From an uncultured Bacteroidales bacterium (GTDB taxonomy: Bacteria; Bacteroidota; Bacteroidia; Bacteroidales; UBA932): a stretch of DNA of 45,720 bases. Below, in pieces: positions 28,998-34,782 of this stretch; position 1 is the stretch's first letter; every line of letters starts with the position of its first letter. The DNA is taken from assembly GCA_900320185.1 (NCBI GenBank), contig ONRD01000016.1:1-45720 (forward strand), written 5' to 3'. The notes below the pieces were generated by a model. The model saw only the letters and a program-made list of their open reading frames with translations. It was not told where the DNA came from and did no database searches. The position numbers and the translations under genes are program-made.

Positions 28998-29028
28998 TTT
29001 GGATTCCCGAAAAATGTTTGTAAATTGC
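28998..29028 (+). promoter_or_regulatory. Putative promoter of the glnN leader
   Basis: TTTG (28998-29001), a 19-nt spacer and TAAATTGC (29021-29028; two mismatches to TAnnTTTG) give the expected geometry. The predicted start is near 29034, inside the palindrome CGCAAA-TT-TTTGCG (29031-29044) and about 15 nt before the leader ATG. The transcript would carry a leader of about 207 nt before glnN. Confidence 0.4.
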
Positions 29029-29048
29029 ATCGCAAATTTTTGCGAAGA

Positions 29049-29129
29049 ATGGCAGTCAAGGTATACAATCAGCAGCAGAGCCAGCAGTCCCAGGGCCAGC
29101 AGGTCCCGAGGGTTTCTGTGTGCGTATAA
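29049..29129 (+). CDS. Candidate Gln-rich leader peptide of glnN (26 aa)
   Basis: ATG at 29049 opens a 26-codon frame ending in TAA at 29127-29129. Residues 7-18 read NQQQSQQSQGQQ: eight Gln codons, all CAG, within eleven codons (29070-29102). It precedes the gene for glutamine synthetase and is followed by a strong hairpin at 29172-29197. Established attenuators of amino-acid operons use the same logic: a short peptide rich in the pathway product, then mutually exclusive hairpins. I infer a regulatory leader that senses charged tRNA-Gln. Translation is unproven, and the CAG run could be chance low-complexity sequence. There is only a weak purine tract (GCGAAGA) before the ATG, which is usual in this phylum. 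Confidence 0.5.
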   Translation: MAVKVYNQQQSQQSQGQQVPRVSVCV

Positions 29130-29171
29130 CCGGCCGCGCGCCATGGGAATCGTAAACAATATTGAAATATC

Positions 29172-29197
29172 GAGGCTGGTCCGAGGGGATCAGCCTC
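29172..29197 (+). terminator. Candidate attenuator hairpin upstream of glnN
   Basis: An 11-bp stem (29172-29182 with 29187-29197; ten Watson-Crick pairs and one G.U) closes a GAGG tetraloop and is followed by TTTCGTTG, a weak T tract. The 5' arm can instead pair with ACCGGCC at 29129-29135, which overlaps the leader-peptide stop (7 bp, one G.U). It can also pair with GGGCCAGC at 29093-29100 inside the Gln codons (8 bp, one G.U). These are candidate antiterminators. Termination efficiency cannot be judged from sequence. Confidence 0.5.
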
Positions 29198-29240
29198 TTT
29201 CGTTGAGAACGGTTAGTTAAACTTTATAAAAAGTACAGGT

Positions 29241-31415
29241 ATGGACAGATTTGATCTGGTGAAGGAATCCTTCGAGCGGAAGGTAGTCCCCGCAGAGGTC
29301 CCGGCAGGCAAGACCTCCGAGTATTTCGGCGAACTGGTGTTCGACCGGAAGAAGATGTGCAAGTATCTTGACGCGGAGAGTCTCCAGGCCCTGCTCGCCT
29401 GCATCGAAGGCGGCAAGGCGTTGGACCGCAAGACGGCTGACGGTGTGGCCCGCGGCATGAAGGAATGGGCCATGGAGCATGGCGTGACCCATGTCACGCA
29501 CTGGTTCCAGCCGCTGACCGAAGGCACGGCCGAAAAGCACGACTCCCTGATCGACTACGACGGCAAGGGCGGCGTCATCGAGACCTTCGACGGCAAGATG
29601 CTCGCCCAGCAGGAGCCGGACGCTTCGTCCTTCCCCAGCGGAGGGATCCGCGCCACTTTCGAGGCGCGCGGCTACACCGCCTGGGACCCGACCTCGCCGG
29701 TCTTCATCCTCGACGACACACTCTGCATCCCGACGATTTTCATTTCCTATACGGGCGAGGCGCTGGACTACAAGACGCCGCTCAAGCGCGCCCTCAAGGC
29801 CGTCAGCGATGCGGCCGTGCCCATCTGCAAGCTCTTCGACCCCGGTGTGACCAAGGTCTATTCCTATCTGGGTTGGGAGCAGGAGTATTTCCTCGTGGAC
29901 GAGGCGCTCTATGCCGCCCGTACGGACCTGATGATCACCGGACGGACCCTCTTCGGCCACAATTCCTCGAAGAACCAGCAGCTGGACGACCACTATTTCG
30001 GGTCCATCCCGCCTCGCGTGGCCGCCTTCATGCGGGACCTCGAAGTGGCCGGTCACAGGCTCGGCATTCCCATCAAGACCCGCCACAACGAGGTGGCGCC
30101 GAACCAGTTCGAGCTGGCGCCGATCTACGGCGAGGCCAACCTCGCCAACGACCAGAACCAGATCGTGATGAACCTGATGAACCGGATAGCGCGCAAGCAC
30201 GGTTTCGTGGTGCTCCTGCACGAGAAGCCCTTCGACGGGGTCAACGGCTCGGGCAAGCACAACAACTGGTCGCTCGGCACGGACCGGGGCACGCCGCTGC
30301 TCGCCCCGGGCAAGGATGCCAATGGCAACCTCCAGTTCGTCACCTTCTTCGTCAATGTGCTGGCGGCCGTGCAGAAGCACAATGCCTTGCTGAAGGCCTC
30401 GATCGCCAGCGCGACCAACGCCCACCGTCTGGGCGCCAACGAGGCCCCGCCCGCGATCGTGTCCGCATTCCTCGGCCGCACGATGACCGAGGTCCTGCAC
30501 AAGCTTCTCGAGGTCCCGTCCGATACTCCGATCGAGATCGCCGGCAAGAAGGGCAAGAGCCTTGGCCTCGTGGAGATTCCGGAGATCTTCGTGGACAACA
30601 CCGACCGCAACCGCACCTCGCCTTTCGCCTTCACCGGCAACCGCTTCGAGTTCCGCGCCGTAGGATCCTGCGCCAACTGTGCCGGGGCGATGACGACGCT
30701 CAATGCGGCCGTGGCCGAGCAGTTGATCGATTTCAAGGCTGCCGTGGACAAGGAGCTCGCCGCCGGCAAGAAGACTGCCGTGGCAGTGATGGATGCCCTC
30801 AAGCCCATCATCAAGTCCGTGCTGGACGTCGTCTGCTTCGACGGCAACGGCTACACCGAAGAGTGGAAACAGGAGGCGGCGCGCCGTGGCCTCGATGTCG
30901 AGACCAACGTGCCGAAGATGTTCTGTGAGTTCACCAAACCTGCTTCCGTGGAGATGTTCACCAAGACAGGGGTCTATACCGAGAAGGAACTGGAAGCCCG
31001 CAATGAGGTGAAGTGGGAGACTTATGTCAAAAAAGTCCAGATCGAGTCGCGCGTGATAGTGCGGATGGCTATCAACCATATCATCCCCGCCGCGCTTGAG
31101 TACAAGGCCAAGCTCCTGAAGGAGGTGGCTCTCTCCAAGGAAGTCTACGGCAATCTGGAAGGCTGCTCCACGGAACTCCTGATCCTGGATGATATCAACA
31201 AGTACGTGGAGGATATACGTTTGAAGGCCCTGGCTATGAAAGAGGCCCGCAAGGCGGCCAACAACATCGCGGACGACTACGGACGCGCCCTCGCGTACCA
31301 TGACATCGCCGAGAGTTTCCCGGCCCTCCGCCGCCCGATCGACAAGCTCGAGGAGGTCGTGGACAACAGGATGTGGCCGCTGCCGAAGTACCGCGAACTG
31401 CTTTTCATCAACTAG
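29241..31415 (+). CDS. glnN: Glutamine synthetase type III
   Basis: This enzyme makes glutamine from glutamate, ammonia and ATP in the cytosol as a large oligomer. At 724 residues it has the length of the GSIII family found in Bacteroidetes and cyanobacteria, not of the 440-470-residue type I enzyme. Family sequences include SGGIRATFEARGYTAWDPTS, the catalytic-region GVNGSGKHNNWSLGTDRGTP, TNAHRLGANEAPPAI and RTSPFAFTGNRFEFRAVGS. The C-terminal part is helical and specific to GSIII. The start at 29241 follows an AT-rich stretch without a Shine-Dalgarno site. The upstream leader suggests control by glutamine supply. The stop is 18 nt before pyrG. Confidence 0.96.
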   Translation: MDRFDLVKESFERKVVPAEVPAGKTSEYFGELVFDRKKMCKYLDAESLQALLACIEGGKALDRKTADGVARGMKEWAMEHGVTHVTHWFQPLTEGTAEKHDSLIDYDGKGGVIETFDGKMLAQQEPDASSFPSGGIRATFEARGYTAWDPTSPVFILDDTLCIPTIFISYTGEALDYKTPLKRALKAVSDAAVPICKLFDPGVTKVYSYLGWEQEYFLVDEALYAARTDLMITGRTLFGHNSSKNQQLDDHYFGSIPPRVAAFMRDLEVAGHRLGIPIKTRHNEVAPNQFELAPIYGEANLANDQNQIVMNLMNRIARKHGFVVLLHEKPFDGVNGSGKHNNWSLGTDRGTPLLAPGKDANGNLQFVTFFVNVLAAVQKHNALLKASIASATNAHRLGANEAPPAIVSAFLGRTMTEVLHKLLEVPSDTPIEIAGKKGKSLGLVEIPEIFVDNTDRNRTSPFAFTGNRFEFRAVGSCANCAGAMTTLNAAVAEQLIDFKAAVDKELAAGKKTAVAVMDALKPIIKSVLDVVCFDGNGYTEEWKQEAARRGLDVETNVPKMFCEFTKPASVEMFTKTGVYTEKELEARNEVKWETYVKKVQIESRVIVRMAINHIIPAALEYKAKLLKEVALSKEVYGNLEGCSTELLILDDINKYVEDIRLKALAMKEARKAANNIADDYGRALAYHDIAESFPALRRPIDKLEEVVDNRMWPLPKYRELLFIN

Positions 31416-31433: not shown

Positions 31434-33056
31434 ATGACGATGGGGACAAAATATATCTTCATTACCGGAGGCGTTGTGTCATCGCTCGGCAAAGGGATCA
31501 TCTCCGCCAGCATCGGTCTTCTCCTGCAGGCGCGTGGCTACAGGATCACGATCCAGAAATTCGACCCTTATATCAACATCGACCCGGGGACGCTCAATCC
31601 CTACGAGCATGGCGAGTGCTATGTGACGGAGGACGGCTTCGAGACGGACCTCGACCTGGGGCACTACGAGCGCTTCACCGGGATCCGCACGACGCGCGAC
31701 AACTCCGTCACGACGGGCAGGATCTACAAGACCGTCATCGACCGCGAGCGGCGCGGGGACTATCTGGGCAAGACCATCCAGGTGGTGCCGCACATCACCG
31801 ATGAGATCAAGCGGCGGATGCTGCGCACGGATGTGACCGGCGAAACGCCCGATTTCGTGATCACTGAGGTCGGCGGCACGATCGGCGACATCGAGAGCGC
31901 TCCCTTCATGGAGGCTATCCGCCAGCTGCGCTGGCAGTTGGGCCGGGACGCCGTGTGCGTGCACCTGACCTATGTGCCTTACCTGAAAGCCGCCGAGGAG
32001 TTGAAGACCAAGCCAACGCAGCACTCCGTCAAGGAACTGCAGGGAATGGGAATCCAGCCCGACATAATCGTCCTGCGCACGGAGCGCCATTTGGACGATG
32101 CGATGCGCATGAAGGTAGCGTCGTTCTGCAATGTCGACCTGGAGTGCGTGGTGCAGAGCGAGGACCTGCCGAGCATCTATGAGGTGCCTGTGAATATGCA
32201 GCGTCAGGGACTTGACGCAGCGATTCTGCGCAAGATCGGCATCCCCGTGGGGGAGACGCCGGCGATGAAGCCCTGGCAGGATTTCCTGGAGAAGCAGCGC
32301 CATGCCCGGCGCGAGGTGCATGTGGCCCTCGTTGGCAAATATGACCTCCAGGATGCCTACAAGAGCATTCGCGAGAGCCTGAACCTGGCCGGCATCTACG
32401 AAGGGGCGAAGGTGAAGGTCCATTTTGTCAGCAGCCAGGCACTGACGCGGGACAACGTGGCCGGGAAACTCTCCGGGATGGCCGGGATCGTAATCTGTCC
32501 AGGTTTCGGCCAGCGGGGAATCCCCGGCAAGATCCTCGCGGCGGAGTACGCCCGCACGCAGGATATCCCTTGCTTCGGCATCTGCCTGGGCATGCAGATG
32601 ATGGTCATCGAATTCGCCCGCCATGTGCTGGGCTATGCGGATGCCGACAGCAGCGAGATGCGTCCGGATTCGCCGCACAATGTCATCGATTTGATGGAGG
32701 AGCAGAAAAGCATCACCCAGATGGGCGGGACGATGCGCCTCGGGGCATATGCCTGCACCATCCGGCCGGGCAGCCATACCAGTGCCGCGTACGGCGGGCA
32801 GGAAGAAGTCCGCGAGCGTCACCGCCACCGCTACGAATTCAATAACGCCTATCGGGAGGAGTTTGAAGCCAAAGGCATGCTCTGCGCAGGCACCAATCCG
32901 GACGCCGCCCTGGTGGAAATCGTGGAGATTCCCACGCTGCGCTGGTACATCGGCACCCAGTTCCACCCGGAGTACAGCTCGACGGTGCTGCATCCCCATC
33001 CGCTGTTTGTCAGTTTCATCCAAGCCTGTGTCGAATATGGAGACGTTGAAGCATGA
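31434..33056 (+). CDS. pyrG: CTP synthase
   Basis: This enzyme converts UTP to CTP with ATP and glutamine-derived ammonia in the cytosol. The N-terminal amidoligase domain (about residues 1-270) opens with KYIFITGGVVSSLGKGIISA and contains FDPYINIDPGTLNPYEHGEC and ITEVGGTIGDIES. The C-terminal class I glutamine amidotransferase domain (about 295-540) has the nucleophile elbow FGICLGMQMM and the His/Glu pair QFHPEYSS. The length of 540 is normal. An ATG two codons downstream (MGTKYIF) is the more usual family start. It follows glnN by 18 nt, and its last 20 nt overlap purF, indicating an operon. Confidence 0.97.
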   Translation: MTMGTKYIFITGGVVSSLGKGIISASIGLLLQARGYRITIQKFDPYINIDPGTLNPYEHGECYVTEDGFETDLDLGHYERFTGIRTTRDNSVTTGRIYKTVIDRERRGDYLGKTIQVVPHITDEIKRRMLRTDVTGETPDFVITEVGGTIGDIESAPFMEAIRQLRWQLGRDAVCVHLTYVPYLKAAEELKTKPTQHSVKELQGMGIQPDIIVLRTERHLDDAMRMKVASFCNVDLECVVQSEDLPSIYEVPVNMQRQGLDAAILRKIGIPVGETPAMKPWQDFLEKQRHARREVHVALVGKYDLQDAYKSIRESLNLAGIYEGAKVKVHFVSSQALTRDNVAGKLSGMAGIVICPGFGQRGIPGKILAAEYARTQDIPCFGICLGMQMMVIEFARHVLGYADADSSEMRPDSPHNVIDLMEEQKSITQMGGTMRLGAYACTIRPGSHTSAAYGGQEEVRERHRHRYEFNNAYREEFEAKGMLCAGTNPDAALVEIVEIPTLRWYIGTQFHPEYSSTVLHPHPLFVSFIQACVEYGDVEA

Positions 33057-34782
33057 GTGCGGGGTGGCGATGATCCGCCTGCTCAAGCCGCTTGATTATT
33101 ACAAGAACAAGTACGGCACCTCCCGCTACGGCCTGGACAAATTGTACCTGCTGATGGAGAAGCAGCACAACCGGGGACAGGAAGGGGCCGGCCTGGCCTA
33201 CGTCGACCTGGATGCGCCCGCCGGTACGGAGTACATGTTCCGCGAGCGGGCCGAAGGGTCGGATGCCATCACCGAGATATTCAGGAAGGTGGATGCTTCC
33301 ACGGCCGGCCAGCTGTACATGGGGCACCTGCGCTATTCGACGACCGGCAAGAGCGGCCTGAGCTACGTCCATCCGTTCCTGCGCCGCAACAACTGGCGCG
33401 CAAAGAATCTCTGCCTGTGCGGCAATTTCAACATGACCAACATCGAGGAAGTCTTCGGCTTCCTGACCGCCCAGGGTCAGTCTCCCAGATTGTACGGCGA
33501 TGCCTACATCACGCTGGAGCTGATGGGACACCGCCTGGACCGCGAGGCAGAGCGCCTGTTCGCCGAGGCCCGGGAGCAGGGTCTGGAAGGGCTTGCCGTC
33601 ACGCATTACATCGAAGATCACGTGTGCATGGCGAATGTCCTCCGTTCGACGATGGTCCACTTCGACGGCGGCTATGTGATGTGCGGCCTGACGGGAAGCG
33701 GCGAGATGTTCACCGTGCGCGATCCCTGGGGGATCCGCCCGGCTTTCTATTACCGCGACGACGAACTCATCGCCATCGCGAGCGAGCGTCCCGTCCTGCA
33801 GACGACCTTCGACCTGGAGAGCTGCGATGTCTGCGAGCTCATGCCCGGGCAGGCGCTGATCGTCCGACGGGACGGCAGGAGCAGCCTTGAGCAGATCCTG
33901 CCGGCGCAGAAACTCTCCGCCTGCTCGTTCGAGCGGATCTATTTCAGCCGCGGATCGGACTGCGACATCTACCAGGAGCGCAAGCGCCTGGGCGAGCAGC
34001 TGGTCCAGCCCGTCCTGAAGGCCGTCTCGGAAGACCTGGACAACACGGTGTTCTCCTATATTCCGAATACGGCCGAGGTGGCCTACTACGGCATGGTCGG
34101 CGGCTTCCGCAAGCTTCATGACGAGATACGTACGGAGAAGGTGGTTGTCAAGGACATCAAGCTGCGCACCTTCATCACGGACAATGCGGGCCGCAACGAC
34201 TTGGCCGCCCACGTCTACGACATCAGCTACGGCAGCCTGCGGCCCTACGAGGACAACCTGGTCGTCATCGACGACAGCATCGTGCGGGGGACGACCCTCC
34301 GGGAAAGCATCTTCAAGATCCTGGACCGCCTGCATCCAAGGAAGATCGTCATGGTGTCGAGCGCTCCGCAGATCCGGTATCCCGACTACTACGGCATCGA
34401 CATGTCGCACCTGGAGGAGTTGTGCGCCTTCCGGGCCGCCATCGAGCTGCTCCGCGACCGGGGAATGCAGCAGCTGGTCGAGGACGTCTACCGGAAATGC
34501 AAGGAGGATCCGCTGTCGGAGAACCACGTCAGGGAGATCTACGCTCCTTTCAGCGTGGAGGAAATCAACGCAAAGATCGTGGAAATGCTCCGGCCGGAAG
34601 GCATGCGGGCCCCGGTCGAACTGGTCTTCCAGAGCATCGCCGGGCTCCACCTGGCCTGCCCGGACCATCCCGGCGACTGGTACTTCACAGGGCATTATCC
34701 CACGCCAGGCGGCACGCGCCTGTGCAACAAGGCCTTCGTCGACTACGTCGAGCAGGTCCTGAAGTTACGGCTGCCGCTGTAG
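33037..34782 (+). CDS. purF: Amidophosphoribosyltransferase (PurF family, long Bacteroidetes form, 581 aa)
   Basis: This enzyme transfers glutamine amide nitrogen to PRPP in the first step of purine synthesis. ATG 33037 is chosen because METLKHECGVAMIRLL places the class II amidotransferase Cys8 after a short propeptide, as in PurF. The open frame extends upstream to 32749 only as the shadow of pyrG. Other features are MEKQHNRGQEGAGLAY, the glutaminase loop GHLRYSTTGKSGLSY, RDPWGIRPAFYY, and the PRPP-binding motif NLVVIDDSIVRGTT in the phosphoribosyltransferase domain. The protein is about 80-100 residues longer than E. coli PurF, as in other Bacteroidetes. The start lies inside pyrG (20-nt overlap). 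The stop overlaps the convergent symporter gene by 18 nt. Confidence 0.9.
   Translation: METLKHECGVAMIRLLKPLDYYKNKYGTSRYGLDKLYLLMEKQHNRGQEGAGLAYVDLDAPAGTEYMFRERAEGSDAITEIFRKVDASTAGQLYMGHLRYSTTGKSGLSYVHPFLRRNNWRAKNLCLCGNFNMTNIEEVFGFLTAQGQSPRLYGDAYITLELMGHRLDREAERLFAEAREQGLEGLAVTHYIEDHVCMANVLRSTMVHFDGGYVMCGLTGSGEMFTVRDPWGIRPAFYYRDDELIAIASERPVLQTTFDLESCDVCELMPGQALIVRRDGRSSLEQILPAQKLSACSFERIYFSRGSDCDIYQERKRLGEQLVQPVLKAVSEDLDNTVFSYIPNTAEVAYYGMVGGFRKLHDEIRTEKVVVKDIKLRTFITDNAGRNDLAAHVYDISYGSLRPYEDNLVVIDDSIVRGTTLRESIFKILDRLHPRKIVMVSSAPQIRYPDYYGIDMSHLEELCAFRAAIELLRDRGMQQLVEDVYRKCKEDPLSENHVREIYAPFSVEEINAKIVEMLRPEGMRAPVELVFQSIAGLHLACPDHPGDWYFTGHYPTPGGTRLCNKAFVDYVEQVLKLRLPL

Follow-up and report, generated by a model that had tools for sequence, protein, structure and literature searches.

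Ribosome-mediated attenuators are described for the his, trp, thr and leu operons (Elf and Ehrenberg 2005, PMC1183508). Here, we analyze a 45,720-nt stretch of DNA from an uncultured Bacteroidales bacterium (contig ONRD01000016.1; the whole stretch is referred to as the window), in which glnN, encoding a type III glutamine synthetase (GSIII), is preceded by a short open reading frame (ORF) rich in glutamine (Gln) codons and by a predicted terminator. Compared with the classical attenuators, as far as the accessible text of the cited source describes them, this locus also combines a leader ORF containing regulatory codons, a terminator, and a competing pairing placed such that the position of the ribosome could decide between the two. 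It differs in that glutamine, or asparagine (Asn), is specified by the regulatory codons, nitrogen assimilation genes follow, the competing element mostly lies in a hairpin loop, and no protector hairpin was seen. From the sequence comparisons reported below, we consider it likely that the leader is a ribosome-mediated transcription attenuator, which reads charged tRNA-Gln, and in addition tRNA-Asn where the asparagine synthetase B gene asnB follows, in Candidatus Cryptobacteroides. We take this genus of gut and rumen Bacteroidales as the genus of the window genome (G000).

Other described systems share single aspects of this arrangement. The LEU element of Actinobacteria combines a leader peptide with a pseudoknot and a pairing with the Shine-Dalgarno box, but it responds to leucine, and no pairing to a terminator arm is described in the accessible text (PMC1262725). 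Within the same phylum, leader-peptide attenuation upstream of amino acid biosynthesis operons is mentioned for Flavobacterium psychrophilum, the accessible text not naming the amino acids (PMC9723704), and short ORFs reminiscent of leader peptides are reported in the accessible text for Bacteroides thetaiotaomicron (PMC7366714). Glutamine and asparagine are unmentioned in the accessible main text of a survey of premature terminators (PMC2965389). The glnA RNA and Downstream-peptide motifs, candidate metabolite binders according to the accessible part of their description (PMC2864571), resemble our leaders in being associated with nitrogen genes including glutamine synthetase; no Rfam match at the gathering score was found here. 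No leader-peptide attenuator for Gln or Asn was among the literature matches listed by a search that did not extend to bioRxiv and most subscription papers. What is new lies within a known mechanism and concerns the specificity, the regulon, and the probable form of the antiterminator.

Gln-rich leaders upstream of glnN

A first-pass annotation of the window had proposed that the position of a ribosome on the Gln codons of a leader frame decides whether a terminator forms upstream of glnN, with low levels of charged tRNA-Gln raising expression. The coordinates on which this proposal relied, i.e., those of the leader with its eight CAG codons, the hairpin, and the glnN start, were confirmed on the sequence (Table 1), and the element at the leader stop codon can indeed form 7 bp, including one G-U pair, with the terminator 5′ arm. 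The core of the proposal is supported by the comparison with related genomes.

We searched for glnN in the genomes of 41 relatives, in 250 genomes of the genus (nearly all Cryptobacteroides genomes used are metagenome assemblies), and in additional named genomes, and read 217 loci. After removal of three loci with less than 150 nt of upstream DNA and of duplicates (leaving 185), and of one locus with runs of N, 184 upstream regions remained, which are distinct in sequence but not independent. Short frames with a start codon, a stop codon and at least five Gln within 11 codons were found in 38 of these 184 regions on the sense strand, in none of the 184 on the antisense strand, and in one of 1840 dinucleotide shuffles. 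Visual inspection added ten further leaders, which have four Gln or a longer frame, resulting in a set of 48 leaders, for all of which an ATG or GTG start was located. Gln-rich frames hence persist in relatives with different sequences and lengths, a point that the first-pass annotation had left to be checked. Among 28 full-length glnN matches (residue 1 to 723–724, ≥85% identity), 26 carried a Gln-rich leader; the two others were L050, with only 49 nt of upstream DNA, and L042, which has no leader. At L210, the last 230 nt before glnN contain an Asn-rich frame, a CCAGCC element and a terminator-like hairpin. This locus was missed by the Gln criterion, and the leader counts may therefore be low. 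Two loci labelled as belonging to other families (L192 and L195) also have Gln-rich glnN leaders, and none of ten glnN loci of other families (L012–L021) has five Gln in 11 codons. One of the latter, L019 from another family of the order, has a short frame with four Gln in 11 codons 214–295 nt before glnN.

A terminator-like hairpin was found downstream of all 48 leaders by a permissive, sequence-only criterion. With a fixed hairpin score, 47 of the 48 leader-positive regions were recognized, compared to 24 of the 136 other glnN upstream regions. When partners of the terminator 5′ arm were sought between +12 and +58 from the last Gln codon, the start of the best one ranged from +17 to +48 across the 48 glnN leaders. 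This partner was located inside the ORF (14 leaders) or started at most 12 nt from the stop codon (34 leaders), the distance of 12 nt being used as the downstream reach of the ribosome, for which we relied on the accessible text of PMC4833913. By its position, the element would be free with a ribosome on the Gln codons and covered with a ribosome at the stop codon in 48 of 48 cases.

Covariation was assessed by comparing each element with the terminator arms of other sequence classes, without removal of kinship. Of 78 leaders, 58 had their own arm within the best tenth and 39 within the best twentieth (his_L393, for which no terminator was obtained, and four of the 18 hisG loci are not included; glnB_L322 was misplaced). 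Exchanges on both sides include the element/arm combinations CCAGCC/GGCTGG, CCGGCC/GGCCGG, GACCGG/CCGGTC, and ACGGCCT/AGGCCGT; further motif pairs are CCGGTC/GACCGG and GTCGGC/GCCGGC. According to this comparison, the stop-codon element covaries with the terminator 5′ arm, which is the kind of compensatory change that the first-pass annotation had asked for. Covariation counts in a core set of 20 leaders were uninformative, and an alignment of 101 covariance model matches was not used for counts because it contained antisense hits and misplaced loops. Several features expected of an attenuator are seen in the sequence, namely a leader ORF with regulatory codons, a match between these codons and the gene product (kinship ignored for the Asn codons), a predicted terminator, and a competing segment that covaries.

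The switch would operate as follows. If charged tRNA-Gln is plentiful, the ribosome would reach the stop codon, melt a hairpin at the leader end (P1) and cover the element, and the terminator would form. If it is scarce, the ribosome would wait on the CAG codons and P1 would fold, so that its loop could catch the emerging terminator 5′ arm in an H-type pseudoknot. With the terminator blocked, the polymerase would continue into glnN, pyrG and a purF-like gene. Switches of this kind would control a group of nitrogen genes in the genus.

Asn codons and leaders of other nitrogen genes

The association with other nitrogen genes and the occurrence of Asn codons together with asnB had been missed by the first-pass annotation, as had the location of the element mostly in the loop of a conserved hairpin. 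All 15 glnN leaders with asnB downstream contain three to eight Asn codons, and 15 of the 17 without asnB contain zero to two (Mann-Whitney test; p = 1.2e-5, kinship ignored). For this comparison, 31 of the 48 leaders and L049 were labelled by hand, and the other 17 were left out as ambiguous. “With asnB” denotes an asnB gene at most 12 kb downstream that shares contig and strand with glnN, co-transcription over that distance being assumed. “Without asnB” denotes its absence from a genome of at least 90% completeness or from at least 13 kb of downstream contig, except for L051, where 11 kb were available downstream and asnB is located on other contigs. The window leader contains one Asn codon and the window genome (93% complete), unlike many relatives, has no match to PII, AsnB, GltB, and HisG queries, and in lacking an AsnB match it fits the Asn-asnB pattern. 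In some genomes glnN is placed behind asnB (L254/L327, L328), and the leaders L254 and L328 of this arrangement are of mixed Gln/Asn composition. Two asnB leaders, L330 and L333, are rich in Asn and contain no more than one Gln.

We searched the 250 genomes of the genus with a covariance model built from the hairpins and the terminator of the core, the pseudoknot being left out. Gln/Asn leaders were present at nine of 20 places other than the known glnN leaders, with glnN following at two of the nine, and the remaining 11 resembled plain terminators. Leaders were found upstream of asnB (L248, L254), of the PII gene glnB with an ammonium transporter gene behind it (L249, L251, L256; AmtB identified by eye), of the glutamate synthase gene gltB (L250), and of a purF-like gene (L266, Gln/Asn-rich); the gene families at L249, L250, L254, and L266 were assigned by family-model matches. 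Direct inspection of the genus revealed at least six Gln+Asn in 11 codons upstream of glnB in nine of 30 loci (L321 was misplaced in this scoring) and at least five upstream of asnB in five of 21 loci, and the antisense strands never exceeded four. None of 21 gltB loci had a leader directly upstream (L370 was misplaced and L358 has 25 nt of upstream DNA). The gltB gene follows right behind glnN in 16 of 23 genomes, and its sole own leader is L250.

Across the order, the model matched 133 of 393 genomes at an E-value of 5e-4, including G000 and G585 of the genus, and no Gln/Asn-rich frame was present at the match in the 29 order loci read at model matches. At L288, a Gln-rich stretch lies on the right strand approximately 250 nt upstream of the match. 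When glnB and asnB were examined across the order (56 loci, two of them from the genus; four of 60 fetched were left out), one locus (L431) had at least six Gln+Asn in 11 codons, and none had on the antisense strand. L431 belongs to another family; approximately 150–210 nt before asnB, it carries a short frame rich in Asn (MFILNNFNLLINNNPFER) with a terminator-like hairpin behind it. Its sequence possibly represents an independent Asn attenuator.

With less confidence than for the attenuator itself, but still inclining to this view, we propose that in Cryptobacteroides, Gln/Asn-codon attenuators acting via a loop-to-terminator pseudoknot coordinate PII and ammonium uptake, GSIII, glutamate synthase, asparagine synthetase, and purF-like genes. 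This would be a translation-based nitrogen regulon, the sensor codons of which evolve with the gene content of the operons. Glutamine is a usual signal of nitrogen status, and to our knowledge nitrogen sensing in Bacteroidales is poorly known. If the proposal is correct, the nitrogen signal would be read by the ribosome as the charging of tRNA-Gln, extended to Asn where asparagine synthetase follows, by means of a compact loop-to-terminator switch. Glutamine and asparagine would be added to the amino acids that we know to be used in attenuation, and the system allows one to test directly whether leader codons track the product of the operon.

Hairpin P1 and alternative explanations

P1 takes its 5′ strand from the end of the leader ORF, and this would account for the many leaders that finish with -Cys-Val-stop. 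In the window, P1 has 15 bp including G-U pairs and exceeds the stems of all 35 other local windows (flank-shuffle p = 0.01). Of 65 Gln/Asn leaders, 48 (31 of 48 after removal of near-copies) have the element within the loop of their strongest local stem, and the flank-shuffle p was ≤0.05 in 40 of 65 (23 of the 48 non-redundant leaders). The P1 stems differ much in sequence between leaders, yet the element stays in the loop. As it does so in most leaders, the antiterminator may be a pseudoknot, and we suggest that P1 loop and terminator arm may form one of the H-type. This part of the model is less sure than the attenuator itself because the element is located outside the strongest stem in 17 of the 65 leaders.

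The His leaders of the same genus provide a comparison. Of 18 hisG loci (L376–L393), 15 have an upstream frame with at least four His in 11 codons, compared to none on the antisense strand, where the maximum was three. Of those taken further, 13 of 14 have a terminator. Like the Gln leaders, they combine regulatory codons with a terminator, several having an element at the leader end that is complementary to the terminator 5′ arm. Unlike in the Gln leaders, no stem around the element outranks the other local windows, and in none of 13 does the loop of the strongest stem contain the element. As an observation in its own right, these leaders suggest that attenuation by His codons occurs in uncultured Bacteroidales, the loop hairpin apparently being absent.

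We regard as rather unlikely an attenuator without a pseudoknot, in which the element would act as a classical antiterminator and P1 would serve only as a spacer or to pause the RNA polymerase. Pairing of element and arm alone would explain the switching, the His leaders have such an element without P1, and the 17 Gln/Asn leaders with the element outside the strongest stem fit this explanation as well. It is disfavored by the recurrence of the element in the P1 loop in the 48 other leaders despite very different stems, including those of other genes and of L192 and L195. A leader that senses glutamine directly, as a riboswitch or by binding a protein, with the frame as a by-product of a conserved CAG-repeat RNA, is in our view very improbable. 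The predominance of CAG repeats and the conservation of a structured RNA would agree with it, and glutamine-responsive glnA RNAs exist in cyanobacteria. However, Rfam covariance models, including leader, T-box and glutamine riboswitch families, gave no match at the gathering score (up to E = 10, nothing relevant and four chance-level matches to unrelated families were obtained), the Asn and Gln codons swap in step with asnB up to the Asn-rich leaders L330 and L333, a start codon is present in every glnN leader, and the hisG leaders of the genus are His-rich. The least probable explanation is a small functional protein unrelated to regulation with a hairpin that ends a separate transcript, because, although a start codon and, in 39 of 48 leaders, an upstream promoter-like motif are present, the peptide is variable outside the Gln/Asn run, its end coincides with the P1 stem, and glnN begins a few tens of nt behind the terminator, one arm of which pairs with the leader end.

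Several observations weigh against the attenuator with its pseudoknot. In the window, the T tract of the terminator (TTTCGTTG) is as weak as the first-pass annotation had cautioned, the stability of the leader region 29034–29245 as a whole is not unusual (z = −1.32), and the element-arm pairing ranked fifth of 29 against foreign arms and was not among the best. The terminator stem (−20.8 kcal/mol) is more stable than the pseudoknot helix (−11.1 kcal/mol), so that the outcome of the switch would have to be set by timing, i.e., kinetically. No element enforcing termination when the leader is untranslated was found. The element is outside the strongest stem in 17 of the 65 leaders, and hardly any stem is seen in some, such as L043, L045, L161 and gltB_L250. 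In single-leader shuffle tests, the element reached p < 0.05 in only 22 of 55 cases, and the helices of the 20 core leaders are near-invariant, one pair having changed on both sides, which is not above shuffles. With respect to the Asn codons, L045 (four Asn) and L049 (three Asn) are exceptions without asnB. In a quick tree (25 rows, 22 labelled; L040 and L047 dropped owing to a wrong reading start), the asnB label changes seven times but only three independent contrasts fall on well-supported branches (p = 0.25), which makes the Asn-asnB link too weak there.

Finally, 136 of the 184 glnN upstream regions have no counted leader, although these include L049 and L159 with weaker Gln-rich frames. 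The first-pass annotation had named relatives that keep glnN without the leader as evidence against its proposal, and such relatives partly exist, including L042 and L010 (a partial match at 95%), which are close to the glnN of the window. In four of these regions (L010, L042, L056, L066), leader and terminator are both absent, so that the whole attenuator is missing.

Layout of the window locus

The predicted parts of the leader and the genes behind it are listed in Table 1. The terminator arms read GAGGCTGGTCC-GAGG-GGATCAGCCTC (29172–29197). A second pairing, of 29093–29100 with 29175–29182, which the first-pass annotation had also suggested, is possible on paper from the window sequence. 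The start of the purF-like gene was picked by eye inside a listed ORF (32749–34782), and its protein had no Pfam match at 1e-10. The candidate promoter was named by the Bacteroidetes consensus of the TTTG / TAnnTT(T)G type. Of the 48 leaders, 39 have a TAnnTT(T)G motif within the 75 nt preceding their start, compared to 19% of shuffles.

Table 1 Predicted features of the glnN leader and downstream genes in the window.
Feature	Position	Strand	Remarks
Candidate Bacteroidetes-type promoter	28998..29028	+	TTTG (28998-29001), 19 nt, TAAATTGC (29021-29028)
Leader peptide ORF MAVKVYNQQQSQQSQGQQVPRVSVCV	29049..29129	+	26 codons, ATG at 29049, stop TAA 29127-29129
Regulatory Gln codons	29070..29102	+	CAG x8 within codons 8-18 of the leader
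Hairpin P1	29111..29151	+	5′ strand 29111-29125 in leader ORF, loop 29126-29135, 3′ strand 29136-29151, one bulge
Antiterminator element ACCGGCC (predicted)	29129..29135	+	overlaps leader stop codon, in P1 loop
Intrinsic terminator (predicted)	29172..29200	+	11-bp stem and GAGG loop at 29172-29197, short T tract
Segment GGCTGGT in terminator 5′ arm	29174..29180	+	pairs with the element
glnN, type III glutamine synthetase	29241..31415	+	ATG at 29241; Pfam GSIII_N (4.9e-74) and Gln-synt_C
pyrG, glutamine-hydrolysing CTP synthase	31434..33056	+	TIGR00337; 3′ of glnN
purF-like amidophosphoribosyltransferase homologue	33037..34782	+	TIGR01134 at 138 bits, under the cut-off of 350

Two minor observations concern other glnN upstream regions. 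The glnN copy at L145 lacks a leader frame but still has the terminator and a portion of the hairpin region, and strong terminator-like hairpins with no obvious Gln/Asn-rich frame are located 5′ of glnN at L078, L083, L169, and L182.

Codon usage was compared between leaders and glnN genes of 24 loci. The ratio of CAG to CAA was 155:7 in the leaders and 330:19 in the genes. A special Gln codon in the leaders was rejected, as CAG is the usual Gln codon of the glnN genes too. Asn is mostly encoded by AAT in the leaders (56 vs. 36 AAC), whereas the glnN genes favor AAC (616 vs. 100 AAT).

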